A stretch of DNA of 64,000 nucleotides from assembly GCF_008064665.1 (NCBI RefSeq), contig NZ_VRZA01000004.1:1-64000 (forward strand), given 5' to 3'. The position numbers and the translations under genes were made by a program. How positions within the stretch are numbered: position 1 is the stretch's first letter; each line of letters begins with the position of its first letter. The notes beneath the pieces were generated by a model. It saw nothing but the letters and a program-made list of their open reading frames with translations, was not told where the DNA came from and searched no databases. Positions 12,001 to 15,723 of the stretch are shown here, one piece after another. The stretch is from Parahaliea maris (lineage in GTDB: Bacteria; Pseudomonadota; Gammaproteobacteria; Pseudomonadales; Halieaceae).

Positions 12001-12754
12001 CCCGGGGCAGGCCCGGCTCGCTCACCGGGCGGGCGTATTGCGCCTGTTGCGCCTGCAGAACCGCCAGCAGGTGAAATTCCTGCGCAAGGAACTGCTGCGC
12101 ACCAACGCCGACCAGCTGGCCCTGGCCGGAGCCGGCCTGGAGCGGGCGAGCCTGGTGGATGACCTGATTGACGGCGCCTATGTCCAGGCGCTGGGCCTGG
12201 ACGCCTCCCTGCCGTGGTCGGATGCAGACTTCAACGGTCTGCAGCAGCGGGCAGGACCGCCGGTGGTCAAGGCGGCCAATGAACTGGAGGCGCTGGTGCG
12301 CAATGCCCTGGCGCCCCTGGGGGCGGCCCGCCAGGCCCTGGGCAAGTTGCAGGGGGGCGCATTTGCCGCAGCGCGGGAAGACGTCCAGCAGCAGTTGCAG
12401 GTTCTCCTGGCCCCCGGGTTCCTGCGGGACACCCCCGGCAACTGGCTCGCCCAGTACCCTCGCTATATGAAGGCGCTGGCGCAGCGCGTGGAGCGCCTGA
12501 ACGGACAGCTGGACAAGGATCAGCGCAATACCGCGTTGCTGCAGGGCCTGTGGCAACCGCTGGCGGAGGCGCTGGCCGAACATCCCGGCCTGCTGCTGTT
12601 GTGCGAACCCGCGGTGCAGTACCGCTGGATGCACGAGGAATTCAGGGTGTCATTGTTTGCCCAGCAGCTCGGGACCCGGCTACCGGTGTCGGAAAAGCGC
12701 CTGCAGGCTCAGGCGGAGGCCGTTCAGCAGTGGCTGGAGCAGCACCCACGCTGA
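9014..12754 (+). CDS. hrpA: ATP-dependent RNA helicase HrpA
   Basis: 1246-residue DEAH-box helicase; E. coli HrpA, of similar size, acts on mRNA and stalled-ribosome substrates. Walker A GETGSGKTTQ is near residue 43, DEAHERSLN near 140, SATID near 171, then motif IV-VI blocks VLVFLPGERDIREL, ATNVAETSVTVPGI and QRKGRCGRV. The long C-terminal extension corresponds to the HrpA-specific OB/DUF3418 region, with the DEETLFAFYDERLP block. The ATG at 9014 is chosen because upstream codons overlap the fadD end and lack family sequence. It appears to form a two-gene unit with fadD. Confidence 0.95.
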   Translation: MQETVTEQRTIPPIRFPAELPVAERREEIMAAIRDHQVVVVAGETGSGKTTQLPKICLELGRGRRQRIGHTQPRRLAARTVAQRIAAELETSLGEVVGYQVRFTDQVSDASAVKLMTDGILLAEIQRDRLLRQYDTLIIDEAHERSLNIDFLLGYLKNILPQRPDLKVIITSATIDLESFSRHFDNAPVIEVSGRTYPVETHYIDPAEDRDQGLQSQVVQVVQDIDAGHYGERGDVLVFLPGERDIRELAKQLRRDTELDILPLYARLSQAEQQRVFDLSGRRGVRVVLATNVAETSVTVPGIRYVIDPGEARISRYSYRTKVQRLPIEPISQASANQRKGRCGRVAAGVCIRLYSEEDFERRPEFTDPEIRRTNLAAVILQMLNLRLGELKHFPFIDPPDPRMVRDGYKLLEELGAVSPAGKLTAIGRQMSRLPLDPRLGRMILAAAEQHCLAEMLVIASALSIQDPRERPADKQQQSDQSHARFKHEKSDFMAWLNLWRYYEEQRQSLSQNQLRKLCQREFLSFLRLREWRDIHYQLTIACRQQGLRPARELPPEENYSGVHKALLAGLLGNIAQHQEGREYLGARNRKLQIFPGSALARKKPRWLVAAEIVETSSVFARVVGGIDPLWALEINPDLLKHHYYQPRWQARSGRAMAYERISLYGLTLADKRSVHYGPINPPEARELLIREGLVAGKLQPPPAFLKHNQRLLRELEDLESRTRRRDIVADEETLFAFYDERLPEDIITLRHLNGWLKKDRAAASTLEVPRELLLARDPGELGNQFPDHLAWDDLELRLSYQFEPGGEADGVTVTVPVGLLNRIPRHRFDYLVPGLLRDKCIQLVKSLPKAQRKQLVPVPDYVDRALAELKPGDRPLVQELAKALSRLAGVRLAAEAWDGVELEDFYRMNIRVVDQRGKLLAQGRDLQALVAQFREDTRESVSSAGKNSPARDKVTRWDLGQLPREWRFRQAGVEIVSYPALVDHGEHAAVELLDYPGQARLAHRAGVLRLLRLQNRQQVKFLRKELLRTNADQLALAGAGLERASLVDDLIDGAYVQALGLDASLPWSDADFNGLQQRAGPPVVKAANELEALVRNALAPLGAARQALGKLQGGAFAAAREDVQQQLQVLLAPGFLRDTPGNWLAQYPRYMKALAQRVERLNGQLDKDQRNTALLQGLWQPLAEALAEHPGLLLLCEPAVQYRWMHEEFRVSLFAQQLGTRLPVSEKRLQAQAEAVQQWLEQHPR

Positions 12755-12847
12755 CGAGACCGGGTTCACAGATTGTAAAATATTACCAATCGGTGTTCGG
12801 GCGCGATGAAACTTCACCATCAATACTGTGTCTGAGCTTAGGCAAAT

Positions 12848-12887
12848 ACCCCGCATGGAACCCGGGTGTGATCCCGGACGGTGGGGT
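12848..12887 (+). promoter_or_regulatory. GC hairpin in the leader between hrpA and the hvf cluster
   Basis: A two-tier inverted repeat: an inner 5-base-pair stem CCGGG/CCCGG (12862-12866 and 12873-12877, loop TGTGAT) inside outer arms ACCCC/GGGGT (12848-12852 and 12883-12887), followed by TTTT at 12887-12890. It could terminate hrpA transcription or be a leader structure for the RiPP operon. The middle part is bulged, so it is not a textbook terminator. A TATGCT-like -10 candidate follows near 12893. Confidence 0.45.
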
Positions 12888-12935
12888 TTTGCTATGCTCA
12901 CAATGATTATAGAAAACAGACACAGGGAACTCATC

Positions 12936-13295
12936 ATGGCTCAATTCAAGAAACCCCTCAGCGCAGCGCTCGGTGCCGCCTTCCTGGCCAGTGCCATTGC
13001 CCCCATGGCCTCCGCTGAAAGTAACCCCTTCTCCGCCCAGCAGCTTTCAGGCGGGTACGACCTGGCCAGCTACGACAAGCATGAAGAGGGCAAGTGTGGC
13101 GAAGGCAAGTGCGGCGACAAGAAAGCCGAAGGCAAGTGCGGCGAAGGCAAATGCGGTGAGGGCAAGTGCGGCGACAAAAAAGCCGAAGGTAAATGCGGCG
13201 AAGGCAAGTGCGGCGACAAGAAAGCCGAAGGTAAATGCGGCGAAGGCAAATGCGGCGACAAGAAAGCCGAAGGCTCTTGCGGTGACAAAAAATAG
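12936..13295 (+). CDS. hvfA: HvfA-type RiPP precursor (EGKCG repeat peptide)
   Basis: 119-residue precursor of the HvfA/bufferin class. A Sec signal peptide (about residues 1-27, ending PMASA) is followed by a short conserved NPFSAQQLSGGYDLA segment and a C-terminal repeat core. The core has ten cysteines at residues 54, 59, 68, 73, 78, 87, 92, 101, 106 and 115: nine in EGKCG motifs and the last in EGSCG, spaced by DKKA linkers. In characterised relatives the Cys of such motifs is oxidised by the DUF692 enzyme to oxazolone/thioamide or thiooxazole groups that bind copper. AGGGAA lies 6-7 bases before the ATG. The TAG stop is probably frameshift-derived: the -1 frame adds IAEGSCGK and ends at 13318, overlapping the hvfB start. 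Confidence 0.9.
   Translation: MAQFKKPLSAALGAAFLASAIAPMASAESNPFSAQQLSGGYDLASYDKHEEGKCGEGKCGDKKAEGKCGEGKCGEGKCGDKKAEGKCGEGKCGDKKAEGKCGEGKCGDKKAEGSCGDKK
13086..13292 (+). repeat. coding minisatellite in hvfA (42-base units)
   Basis: Near-identical DNA repeats encode EGKCGEGKCGDKKA units, with one copy carrying an extra EGKCG. The units differ by synonymous changes (AAG/AAA, GGC/GGT), so the motif is conserved at protein level while the repeat remains recombinogenic. Copy number could vary between strains by slippage. The repeat also opens long antisense frames, which are not genes. Confidence 0.9.
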
Positions 13296-13317
13296 CTGAA
13301 GGCTCTTGCGGCAAGTA

Positions 13318-14172
13318 ATGTCGGTGGCAACACGCGAGATCCGCGGCGCGGGTCTCGGCTTGAGACGGGCCCTGCTGGGCCCGCTTCTGTCTCGAGCTCC
13401 CGCGGGAATCGACTTTCTCGAGATCGCACCGGAAAACTGGATTGGTGTGGGGGGGCGCTTTGGTCGCGAATTTCGCGAGCTGGCGGCCCGCTATCCCCTG
13501 GTACTGCATGGCCTGTCGCTGGATATCGGCGGACCTGACCCCCTCGACCTCGACCTGGTACGCGCGGTGCGCGCCCTGATGGATGACCTGGGTGTGTCGA
13601 TTTACAGCGAGCACCTGACCTACTGCGCCGCCGAGGGCCACCTCTACGACCTGCTGCCCATTCCGTTCACCCGGGAGGCGGTGGCGCACGTGGTGGAGCG
13701 CATCCAGCAGGTCCAGGAGGTGATCGGCCAGCCCCTGGTGCTGGAGAACGCGTCCTATTACGCCCAGGCCCACCGGGAAATGAGCGAGCTGGAATTCGTT
13801 ACCGAGGTGCTCGAGCGTTCCGGTGCCGAACTGTTGCTGGACGTCAACAACATCTACGTGAACAGTATTAACCATCGCTATGATCCCGCGGCCTTCCTCG
13901 AGGGCCTGCCCCTGTCCAGGGTGCGCTACATCCATGTGGCCGGGCACTTTGACGAGGCGGACGACCTCAAGGTCGATACCCACGGCGCCGATGTCATCGA
14001 CCCGGTGTGGTCCCTGTTGTCCCACGCCTACGGTTTACTGGGCCCCGTACCGACCCTGCTGGAACGGGATTTCAACCTCCCGCCCCTGGACGAGTTGTTG
14101 CTGGAAGTGGGCGAAGTCCGCCGGCGCCAGGCACTGGCGGCGCCGGAGCGGGCGACGGGGGAGAGCGCCTGA
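13318..14172 (+). CDS. hvfB: DUF692 / MNIO multinuclear iron oxidase HvfB
   Basis: 284-residue TIM-barrel enzyme of the MbnB/HvfB family, predicted to use a di- or tri-iron centre and O2 to modify the Cys residues of HvfA. Likely metal ligands sit in conserved blocks: H64 (LHGLSLD), H99 (YSEHLTY), E143 (VLENASYY), D175 (LLDVNNIYVN), H206/H210 (IHVAGH), D220/H222 (VDTHGAD) and E249 (LLERD). Start chosen at ATG 13318, which overlaps the -1-frame TAA of the precursor gene (TAATG). The in-frame TTG at 13306 is less likely. No strong ribosome binding site precedes the ATG, which fits translational coupling. Its stop overlaps hvfC (TGATG). Confidence 0.94.
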   Translation: MSVATREIRGAGLGLRRALLGPLLSRAPAGIDFLEIAPENWIGVGGRFGREFRELAARYPLVLHGLSLDIGGPDPLDLDLVRAVRALMDDLGVSIYSEHLTYCAAEGHLYDLLPIPFTREAVAHVVERIQQVQEVIGQPLVLENASYYAQAHREMSELEFVTEVLERSGAELLLDVNNIYVNSINHRYDPAAFLEGLPLSRVRYIHVAGHFDEADDLKVDTHGADVIDPVWSLLSHAYGLLGPVPTLLERDFNLPPLDELLLEVGEVRRRQALAAPERATGESA

Positions 14173-14942
14173 TGTCTGCACTGCTCGACGCGCAGCTCGG
14201 CATGGCGCGCCACCTGCGGGACCCCCGGCCGGAAAATGCACCGGAGGGGATAGAGGAGCGCCGGCTCAAGGTGTACCGCGAACTGGTGTACAACAACATA
14301 GAGGGCTTCATCAGCAGTGGTTTCCCGGTGCTGCGCAGCCTCTATGACGCCGGGCAGTGGCAGGAACTGGTGCGTGCCTTCGTGGCGGTGCACCGTTGCG
14401 CCACGCCCTATTTTCTCGAGATCAGCCAGGAGTTTATCCGCTTCCTGACCGAGGATTACTCGCCCCGGGAGTGTGACCCTCCCTTCATTGCCGAACTGGC
14501 CCATTACGAGTGGGTTGAGCTGGCGCTGGATGTCTCCGAGGACGAGCCACCGGCGCTACCCCGGGACCTCGATCCATTGCACGCCGTCCCGCGCTGGTCG
14601 CCGGTCGCGTGGCTATTGAGTTACGCCTGGCCCGTACACCGGATCGGCCCGGCGTTCCGCCCCCGGGAAGTCTCCGAGCCCACTTTCCTGCTGGTCTACC
14701 GTGACCGGGAGGAGACCGTGGGTTTTATGGAATTGAATCCGGCAACGGCGCGCCTGGCTGAGCTGTTGCGGGACAACGTCGCTCAATCCGGGGACGAAGT
14801 ACTCCACCAACTGGCCCGGGAGCTCGGCGCCGAAGTGGACGTGATTCGCAGTTTCGGGGCGGAGCAATTGAATCAGTTCGCCCGCAGGGCCATCATCGCC
14901 CTGGAACCCCTCGATCCTGCCTCTGATGAAGGTTGCCCCTAG
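14172..14942 (+). CDS. hvfC: DUF2063 partner protein HvfC
   Basis: 256-residue protein of the HvfC/MbnC-like family, the usual partner of DUF692 enzymes. It is thought to bind the precursor leader and form the modifying heterodimer. The N-terminal DUF2063 domain is recognisable by RRLKVYRELVYNNIEGFIS, FPVLRSL, AVHRCATPYFLEI and PPFIAELAHYEWVELAL (about residues 33-120). The C-terminal half resembles the usual DNA-binding-like winged domain of these proteins. The ATG overlaps the hvfB stop codon by one base, which indicates tight coupling. The DoxX-type hvfD often found in such clusters does not follow; mlaA does. Confidence 0.92.
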   Translation: MSALLDAQLGMARHLRDPRPENAPEGIEERRLKVYRELVYNNIEGFISSGFPVLRSLYDAGQWQELVRAFVAVHRCATPYFLEISQEFIRFLTEDYSPRECDPPFIAELAHYEWVELALDVSEDEPPALPRDLDPLHAVPRWSPVAWLLSYAWPVHRIGPAFRPREVSEPTFLLVYRDREETVGFMELNPATARLAELLRDNVAQSGDEVLHQLARELGAEVDVIRSFGAEQLNQFARRAIIALEPLDPASDEGCP

Positions 14943-14988
14943 GCGGGCTGGGGCGTACCATCTGCCACCGAATTTGGAACGGCTTCGT

Positions 14989-15723
14989 ATGAATCGCTTG
15001 CTACCTTTCCTGCTAACGTTCGTGGTCCTGCTGGCTGCACCAGCCCGGGGCCAGCAGGTTATTGAGGACGATGCCAACAAGGACCCGTTCGAAGACTACA
15101 ATCGCGCGGTGTTCGCCTTCAATGACGGCCTCGATACCTGGTTCATGCGGCCGGTGGCCAAGAGCTATCGCTTCATCATGCCCGACTTCGCCGAGCGCGG
15201 AGTAACCAATTTCTTTGCCAACCTCTACGACGCCAACTCGGTAGTCAACGCAGTGCTCCAGGGCCGCCTCAATAACGCCGCCCGCGGCACCGGGCGGTTC
15301 CTGGTCAACTCCACTTTTGGCGTGGCTGGATTCTTCGATGTGGCCACCCGCATGGGCCTGACCCCGTACCCCACCGACTTCGGCCACACCCTGGCGGTGT
15401 GGGGGGCGCCTGAGGGGCCCTACCTCATGGTGCCCCTGTTTGGCCCGCGCACCGTGCGCAGCGGTGCCGGGTCCATCGTTGATGTGTACGCTATCCCCCA
15501 GACCTATATCGACAATGTCCGCCTGCGTAACTCGCTGTACGGCCTCGAACTGATCGATGCGCGTGCCCGTTTGCTGGATGTGGATGAATTGACCTCCGGT
15601 GATCGTTATATCTTCATCAGGGATGCATATCTGCAGCAGCGTGAGGTACTGGTGAATGACGGCAGAATACAGGACGATTTCTCCAATTACGGTACCGAAG
15701 ACGGCTGGGAGGAGGAGTTCTGA
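14989..15723 (+). CDS. mlaA: MlaA/VacJ outer-membrane phospholipid-retention protein
   Basis: 244-residue MlaA, which removes mislocalised phospholipids from the outer leaflet and passes them to the MlaC shuttle. Family blocks DPFEDYNRAVFAFND, NFFANL, NSTFGVAGFFDVA, FGHTLAVWG and GPYLMVPLFGP are present in order. The start at ATG 14989 gives a signal peptide ending near PARGQQ. There is no lipobox Cys after the hydrophobic segment, so this copy is predicted to be a non-lipidated secreted form, unlike E. coli MlaA. It is 46 bases downstream of hvfC on the same strand. Other mla genes are not in the window. Confidence 0.93.
   Translation: MNRLLPFLLTFVVLLAAPARGQQVIEDDANKDPFEDYNRAVFAFNDGLDTWFMRPVAKSYRFIMPDFAERGVTNFFANLYDANSVVNAVLQGRLNNAARGTGRFLVNSTFGVAGFFDVATRMGLTPYPTDFGHTLAVWGAPEGPYLMVPLFGPRTVRSGAGSIVDVYAIPQTYIDNVRLRNSLYGLELIDARARLLDVDELTSGDRYIFIRDAYLQQREVLVNDGRIQDDFSNYGTEDGWEEEF

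Follow-up and report, generated by a model that had tools for sequence, protein, structure and literature searches.

The 64,000-nucleotide stretch of the Parahaliea maris genome analyzed here (the window) harbors three consecutive genes, hvfA, hvfB and hvfC (Table 1), which we assign by their sequences to the HvfABC-type sets for thiooxazole-bearing ribosomally synthesized and post-translationally modified peptides (RiPPs; Buf_EGKCG/oxazolin/captophorin, and mmr in Microbulbifer). The cluster is one further example of a published kind, in which an EGKCG-repeat precursor is adjoined by an MNIO of the HvfB family and a DUF2063 partner of the HvfC family with a RiPP recognition element (RRE). A DoxX protein, HvfX, which is a frequent but not universal member of such sets, is also encoded in this genome, but its gene is unlinked to hvfABC. 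In the whole 4.85-Mb genome one MNIO locus and one hvfA locus were found, with hvfABC on contig C18, and the nearest named matches are in Parahaliea, Haliea and Halioglobus. MNIO matches were found in 44 of the 58 genomes searched, this one included, and certain of these matches are remote, with identity as low as 35%.

Table 1. Features of the hvfABC locus and of the detached hvfX gene
Feature	Position	Strand	Basis and remarks
Putative ECF/sigma-E-type promoter of hvfABC, GAAACTT-N15-GTCTGA	12808..12835	+	Pattern search, conservation across loci
hvfA, precursor	12936..13295	+	119 aa, 10 Cys (9 EGKCG, 1 EGSCG); NF050137 match
Signal-peptide-like N terminus (MAQFKKPLSAALGAAFLASAIAPMASA)	12936..13016	+	Read from sequence; kept in alignment of 12 precursors
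Tandem repeat array	13089..13273	+	TRF; overlapping rows, periods 42 (13142-13273), 15, 27 and 57
Putative out-of-frame last-unit relic, IAEGSCGK-TAA	13292..13318	+	Three-frame reading, alignment with two congeners
hvfB, MNIO (formerly DUF692) maturase	13318..14172	+	284 aa; PF05114, NF003818, 3BWW
hvfC, DUF2063/RRE partner	14172..14942	+	256 aa; PF09836, PF22106, NF050145, 3DEE
hvfX (DoxX)	G000:C11:560241-560831		NF050144, 239.5 bits (cut-off 80)

The initial annotation had described a complete cluster, joined by one-base overlaps, of an exported 119-residue peptide, a DUF692 enzyme and a DUF2063 protein. The peptide, with its nine EGKCG motifs, one EGSCG motif and a start resembling a signal peptide, is indeed the product of the hvfA open reading frame (ORF), and profile searches bear out both family names: hvfB scored 336.3 bits against PF05114 (cut-off 25) and 409.5 bits against the NCBIfam HvfB model NF003818 (cut-off 360), and hvfC scored 86.3 bits against PF09836 (cut-off 27.2) and 304.2 bits against the NCBIfam HvfC model NF050145 (cut-off 142), besides matching PF22106. 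Against the models of two other groups the HvfB protein stayed below the cut-off, with 268.5 bits for BufB (NF050167, cut-off 310) and 38.1 bits for the methanobactin enzyme MbnB (TIGR04159, cut-off 325). In the PDB, the entry that best matches hvfB by sequence is 3BWW (E=1.8e-70), and hvfC is best matched by 3DEE (E=1.5e-12). When hvfB is aligned to 3BWW, the blocks HGLSL, S(E/D)HL, EN(A/T)SYY, LDVNNIYVN, YIH(V/I)AGH, VDTHG and LLERDFN are conserved, and we take them to be the site of the iron ligands. According to PMC13097082, 3BWW is an MNIO and 3DEE a partner protein. The family placement of the initial annotation therefore stands, by NF003818, NF050145, 3BWW and 3DEE; for HvfA-type peptides the product now reported is 5-thiooxazole in place of oxazolone/thioamide (PMC13097082, PMC13419390). 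The cluster is complete in that hvfA, hvfB and hvfC are all present, and incomplete if hvfX is counted, which lies outside the window. A one-base overlap does join hvfB and hvfC (TGATG, 14170-14174), but not hvfA and hvfB, where the hvfA stop codon TAG (13293-13295) directly follows a run of six A and lies 22 bases before the hvfB ATG (13318).

The repeat array of hvfA is far from chance, because Tandem Repeats Finder (TRF) resolved a 42-base (14-residue) unit in 3.1 copies with 94% matches, and the precursor scored 80.9 bits against NF050137, the NCBIfam model of the HvfA-family repeat domain (cut-off 19.5). However, the ten cysteines are ordinary, and the impression recorded at first, that the array is longer and more regular than in known examples, did not hold up. 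Among 80 named loci, 75 had a precursor and 72 a usable start; these 72 precursors carry 4-14 cysteines each, with ten or more in 18 of them, and the two congeners (L003 and L004) have ten each like hvfA. Precursors in print span 31-506 residues with up to 58 cysteines (PMC12452194), those of Microbulbifer have five to eight (PMC12538549), and EGKCG is the commonest repeat motif (PMC13097082). At one locus (L027 in genome G029), the precursor upstream of an intact hvfB has only two cysteines and, where the repeats would be, a long acidic tail.

Upstream of hvfA we identified a putative promoter of the extracytoplasmic function (ECF)/sigma-E type, GAAACTT-N15-GTCTGA, a form that we take to resemble sigma-E (RpoE) promoters. 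The pattern GAAACTT-N15-GTCNNA matches once in the 4.85-Mb genome, at hvfA, and its reversed-pattern control gave 0 matches. The window and 109 other loci yielded 100 recognised precursors with 89 distinct upstream regions, of which 43 contain AACTT-gap-GTCnnA (mean 0.55 and maximum 3 in 100 mononucleotide shuffles). With the gap fixed at 15, AACTT-N15-GTC occurs in 44/89, and none of the other spacings between 9 and 23 in more than one. Since the upstream sequences are related, the shuffles overstate the significance, and the fixed spacing, which holds in loci with an hvfB as little as 54% identical to that of the window, is the better argument. At these 44 sites an A stands right before AACTT in 41 and a G one position further in 42, the bases after AACTT are mixed, and the final -10 base is A in 43. 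No sigma-70-type promoter was found in 12700-15100, and no Rfam match within the window. A leader hairpin at about 12842-12892 was dropped, having a fold z-score of -0.54 and, by eye, no counterpart in ten folded relatives. One genome (G017) carries the identical hvfA promoter sequence on two contigs (C104 and C268), which is probably an assembly duplicate.

The relaxed pattern AAACTT-N15-GTCNNA has four matches genome-wide and its backwards control two; this count by itself proves nothing, and it is the conservation across loci that makes the argument. One of the four ends 29 bases before the DoxX gene hvfX on contig C11, which lies at 560 kb of this 1,014-kb contig, at least 450 kb from both ends, and is absent from the window. 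In the 30 hvfX loci compared (both strands, 105,647 bases, own locus included), AACTT-N15-GTC has 16 matches in 16 loci and none elsewhere; every one lies 54-97 bases upstream of the hvfX match and on the coding strand. A scan with looser spacing, in which three of the 30 loci were not recognised, found the core in 14 of 27. The same site in front of a DUF3806 gene (G000:C19:349408), considered as a third regulon member, recurs on the coding strand in 1/30 DUF3806 loci, that of its own genome alone, and we therefore regard it as chance and rejected this gene. The fourth match (C11:332291) was likewise dropped, with no copper- or envelope-linked gene seen by eye within 3 kb downstream. Because the hvfX cores are confined to the coding strand upstream of the gene in 16/30 loci, against 1/30 for DUF3806, hvfABC and hvfX appear to form one regulon spread over two loci, and since hvfX sits behind the shared core on a separate contig, the pathway is probably organized as a split regulon instead of a single operon. 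In six other genomes (G008, G015, G019, G021, G034 and G035) hvfB and the best hvfX are more than 100 kb apart on one contig, and the two genes are neighbors in G005, as they are in seven genomes from other families (G038, G042, G046, G049, G052, G054 and G057). Two additional DoxX observations stand apart. Genome G012 has a second hvfA-like array (C10:45498-46357, L275) and, shortly after it, a second hvfX-like gene (matched in pieces at 57-65% identity), both away from its only MNIO match on contig C37, and the P. maris genome has a second DoxX gene that is weakly HvfX-like (G000:C17:38260-38523, L121; E=1.9e-6).

Judged from these sequences and from the characterized relatives, it is probable that HvfA is an exported peptide whose cysteines are oxidized to 5-thiooxazoles by HvfBC and which buffers Cu(I) under envelope stress, as part of a split regulon with hvfX. 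HvfC, through its RRE, would present the leader of HvfA to HvfB, an iron enzyme predicted by homology to convert the cysteine of each EG(K/S)CG motif to a 5-thiooxazole. HvfA, predicted to be exported because of its signal-peptide-like start, would then reach the periplasm, where its repeats are predicted by homology to bind Cu(I). Transcription would start from the sigma-E-like promoter about 100 bases before hvfA, and the fourth partner, the membrane protein HvfX, would be supplied from the other contig, where the core seen at hvfA also precedes its gene. In Haemophilus influenzae the homologous operon has been shown to be under ECF control, by RpoE2 (PMC7907618). Since the promoter is sigma-E-like, envelope or oxidative stress is more likely to be the signal than copper alone, and Cu(I) buffering would be the chemistry of the peptide. 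The interpretation most favored in the literature for such peptides is periplasmic copper sequestration, and the Microbulbifer product binds Cu(I) and slightly improved the growth of E. coli in 2 mM CuSO4 (PMC12538549). We consider it unlikely that the modified peptide serves mainly in the defence of the envelope against redox or electrophile stress, for example by hypochlorite, with copper binding being secondary, since the characterized products generally bind copper (PMC13097082). Such a role would nevertheless fit the sigma-E/ECF type of the hvfA promoter and the DoxX cluster of Haemophilus influenzae, whose four genes are induced by HOCl in a strongly RpoE2-dependent manner (PMC7907618), as well as the report that in Microbulbifer the Mmr proteins were undetected, whether copper was added or not (PMC12538549).

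Several observations weigh against a Cu(I)-buffering peptide made by a split sigma-E regulon. Besides the undetected Mmr proteins, the authors of PMC12538549 are hesitant about a copper-protective role. The closest downstream genes in the window encode MlaA and a regulator resembling RssB (349.5 bits, where the RssB cut-off is 700) rather than copper functions; upstream of hvfA lies a 1267-residue ORF that by eye resembles a DEAH helicase, and none of the three neighbors is a copper gene. The precursor itself does not reach the HvfA equivalog model NF050188 (70.6 bits, cut-off 95). The promoter core is missing in 45 of the 89 hvfA upstream regions; the four named Microbulbifer loci belong to these, as do several Halieaceae. 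The sites at the two places are also not of one form, in that a G stands two bases before AACTT in 4/16 hvfX sites versus 42/44 hvfA sites, and a T follows AACTT in 16/16 hvfX sites, a position that is mixed at hvfA; two distinct ECF factors whose promoters are related may be at work. Moreover, no ECF gene is tied to the hvfA and hvfX promoters. Among the six highest-scoring ECF genes, rpoE alone has the core upstream, as CGAACTTT-N15-GTCTAT, which is of like geometry but another form, and in only 4 of the 18 loci recognised as rpoE among the 21 scanned (three were not recognised). A core match within the rpoE coding sequence recurs in 17/18 of these loci and was discounted as codon-constrained, and since such a match is so well kept, a conserved core match alone is no proof of a promoter. 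The pattern GAACTT-N15-GTCNNA has six matches in the genome, fewer than the 17 of its reversed-pattern control. We rejected the ECF factor of L158 as the regulator because its presence does not track hvfB in a comparison that includes some incomplete genomes: orthologs (E <1e-50) occur in five genomes with no MNIO match (G006, G014, G016, G027 and G031), and are missing in eleven Halieaceae with an MNIO (G008, G011, G012, G020, G021, G023, G026, G029, G030, G032 and G033). The ECF factor of L161, which by eye has a ChrR-like partner, was set aside on the promoter type that we assume for it, and the NrsF anti-sigma factor (PF06532), as found in Buf1 sets, has no match in the genome. Our best guess for the sigma factor is RpoE or a relative, as a candidate only.

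The distribution of hvfX bears on what the detached gene may do. In three genomes (G007, G016 and G027), hvfX is matched strongly, and neither an MNIO match nor an hvfA match by NF050137 was found; because the NF050137 search misses real precursors (in G003, G008, G009 and G029), hvfA is less securely absent from the three than hvfB. The core upstream of hvfX is kept in G016 (L151) and G027 (L140), not in G007 (L145). These patterns hint that HvfX may act in something other than the maturation of RiPPs. We suggest, as a tentative extension that is more doubtful than the split regulon itself, that the Halieaceae have a dispersed stress regulon of the sigma-E type, in which hvfABC and the detached hvfX would be tied by the promoter core alone and HvfX would have an envelope function of its own, since all three genomes keep hvfX with no hvfB found and two of them keep the core. 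If true, this would explain why such clusters need no copper for induction.

A separate question concerns the tail of hvfA. At its stop codon, the -1 frame reads IAEGSCGK and ends in a TAA (13316-13318) that shares one base with the hvfB ATG. The two congeners end in frame with ...KKAAEGSCGS and have a TGATG junction with hvfB. Nine EGKCG units precede in all three; they are followed by two EGSCG units in the window, the second out of frame, versus one in the congeners. No such EGSCG relic was found in the 75 other precursors when the 80 named loci (five without a recognised precursor) were scanned from the stop codon to 20 bases into the hvfB match. The simplest history suggested by these alignments is that the final unit was recently duplicated and the second copy lost its frame near the A6 run, so that the in-frame cysteines would have stayed at ten. 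That the frame break is a local artefact of sequencing or assembly at the A run, and that the true hvfA has eleven cysteines, seems to us unlikely: the break does lie beside a homopolymer inside a repeat and has no counterpart in the other precursors scanned, but the assembly looks sound, because among 63 ORFs of the congeneric genome G001 matched in the window the sole frame-split one is an antisense open frame over the junction. This comparison covers about the first 48 kb (to about 47.7 kb, where G001 aligns) and is insensitive to splits near gene ends. Far less likely still is a programmed event at this tail, in which a -1 ribosomal frameshift at A6-TAG would add an eleventh EGSCG unit and bring ribosomes to the hvfB start. 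The abutment of the A6 run on the stop codon and the overlap of the -1 frame TAA with the hvfB ATG would suit it, as would the like junction that the congeners have in the zero frame, but the arrangement occurs in one genome and in none of the other precursors scanned, and a simple indel after the duplication is more economical. A 355-residue open frame runs antisense to hvfA and hvfB (12958-14025, minus strand) and is partly open in G001 too; we regard it as most likely a side effect of codon use rich in G+C.

What induces these clusters is an open question in print, that of Microbulbifer having shown no copper response. A core common to hvfABC and a distant hvfX in one family allows a direct test of envelope stress versus copper; it separates HvfX from the operon and offers a motif to find split partners. 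ECF control of such operons is already in print, but a detached hvfX with the same core may be new: it was not found in the literature searched, which left out most subscription papers, and the words promoter, ECF and unlinked were not found in the main text of PMC12452194.

Among the known systems, bufferins Buf1 and Buf2 (PMC12452194) are exported copper peptides modified by an MNIO and a DUF2063 protein, as proposed here; they differ in that HvfA is not a DUF2282 protein, since it has no Pfam match, and HvfB falls under the BufB cut-off. The mmrABC genes for bulbicupramide in marine Microbulbifer (PMC12538549) share with the present locus the gene order, the EGKCG repeats and an origin in marine Gammaproteobacteria, and the available part of that paper reports no doxX in the set; their precursors have fewer cysteines and the four named loci lack the promoter core, whereas here ten cysteines and the core are present. 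In fontiphorin and the captophorins (FonABC, PMC13097082), EGKCG repeats are likewise converted to 5-thiooxazoles by an MNIO with a DUF2063 partner; FonA has seven sites and a characterized product, and HvfA has ten cysteines and a predicted one. Oxazolin/HvfABCX of H. influenzae (PMC13419390, PMC13097082, PMC7907618) is alike in the signal peptide, EGKCG pairs, HvfB, HvfC, HvfX and the ECF control proposed here. However, its precursor has six cysteines, its hvfX lies within the operon and its control is by RpoE2, whereas P. maris has a precursor with ten cysteines, a candidate sigma factor, and hvfX on another contig.
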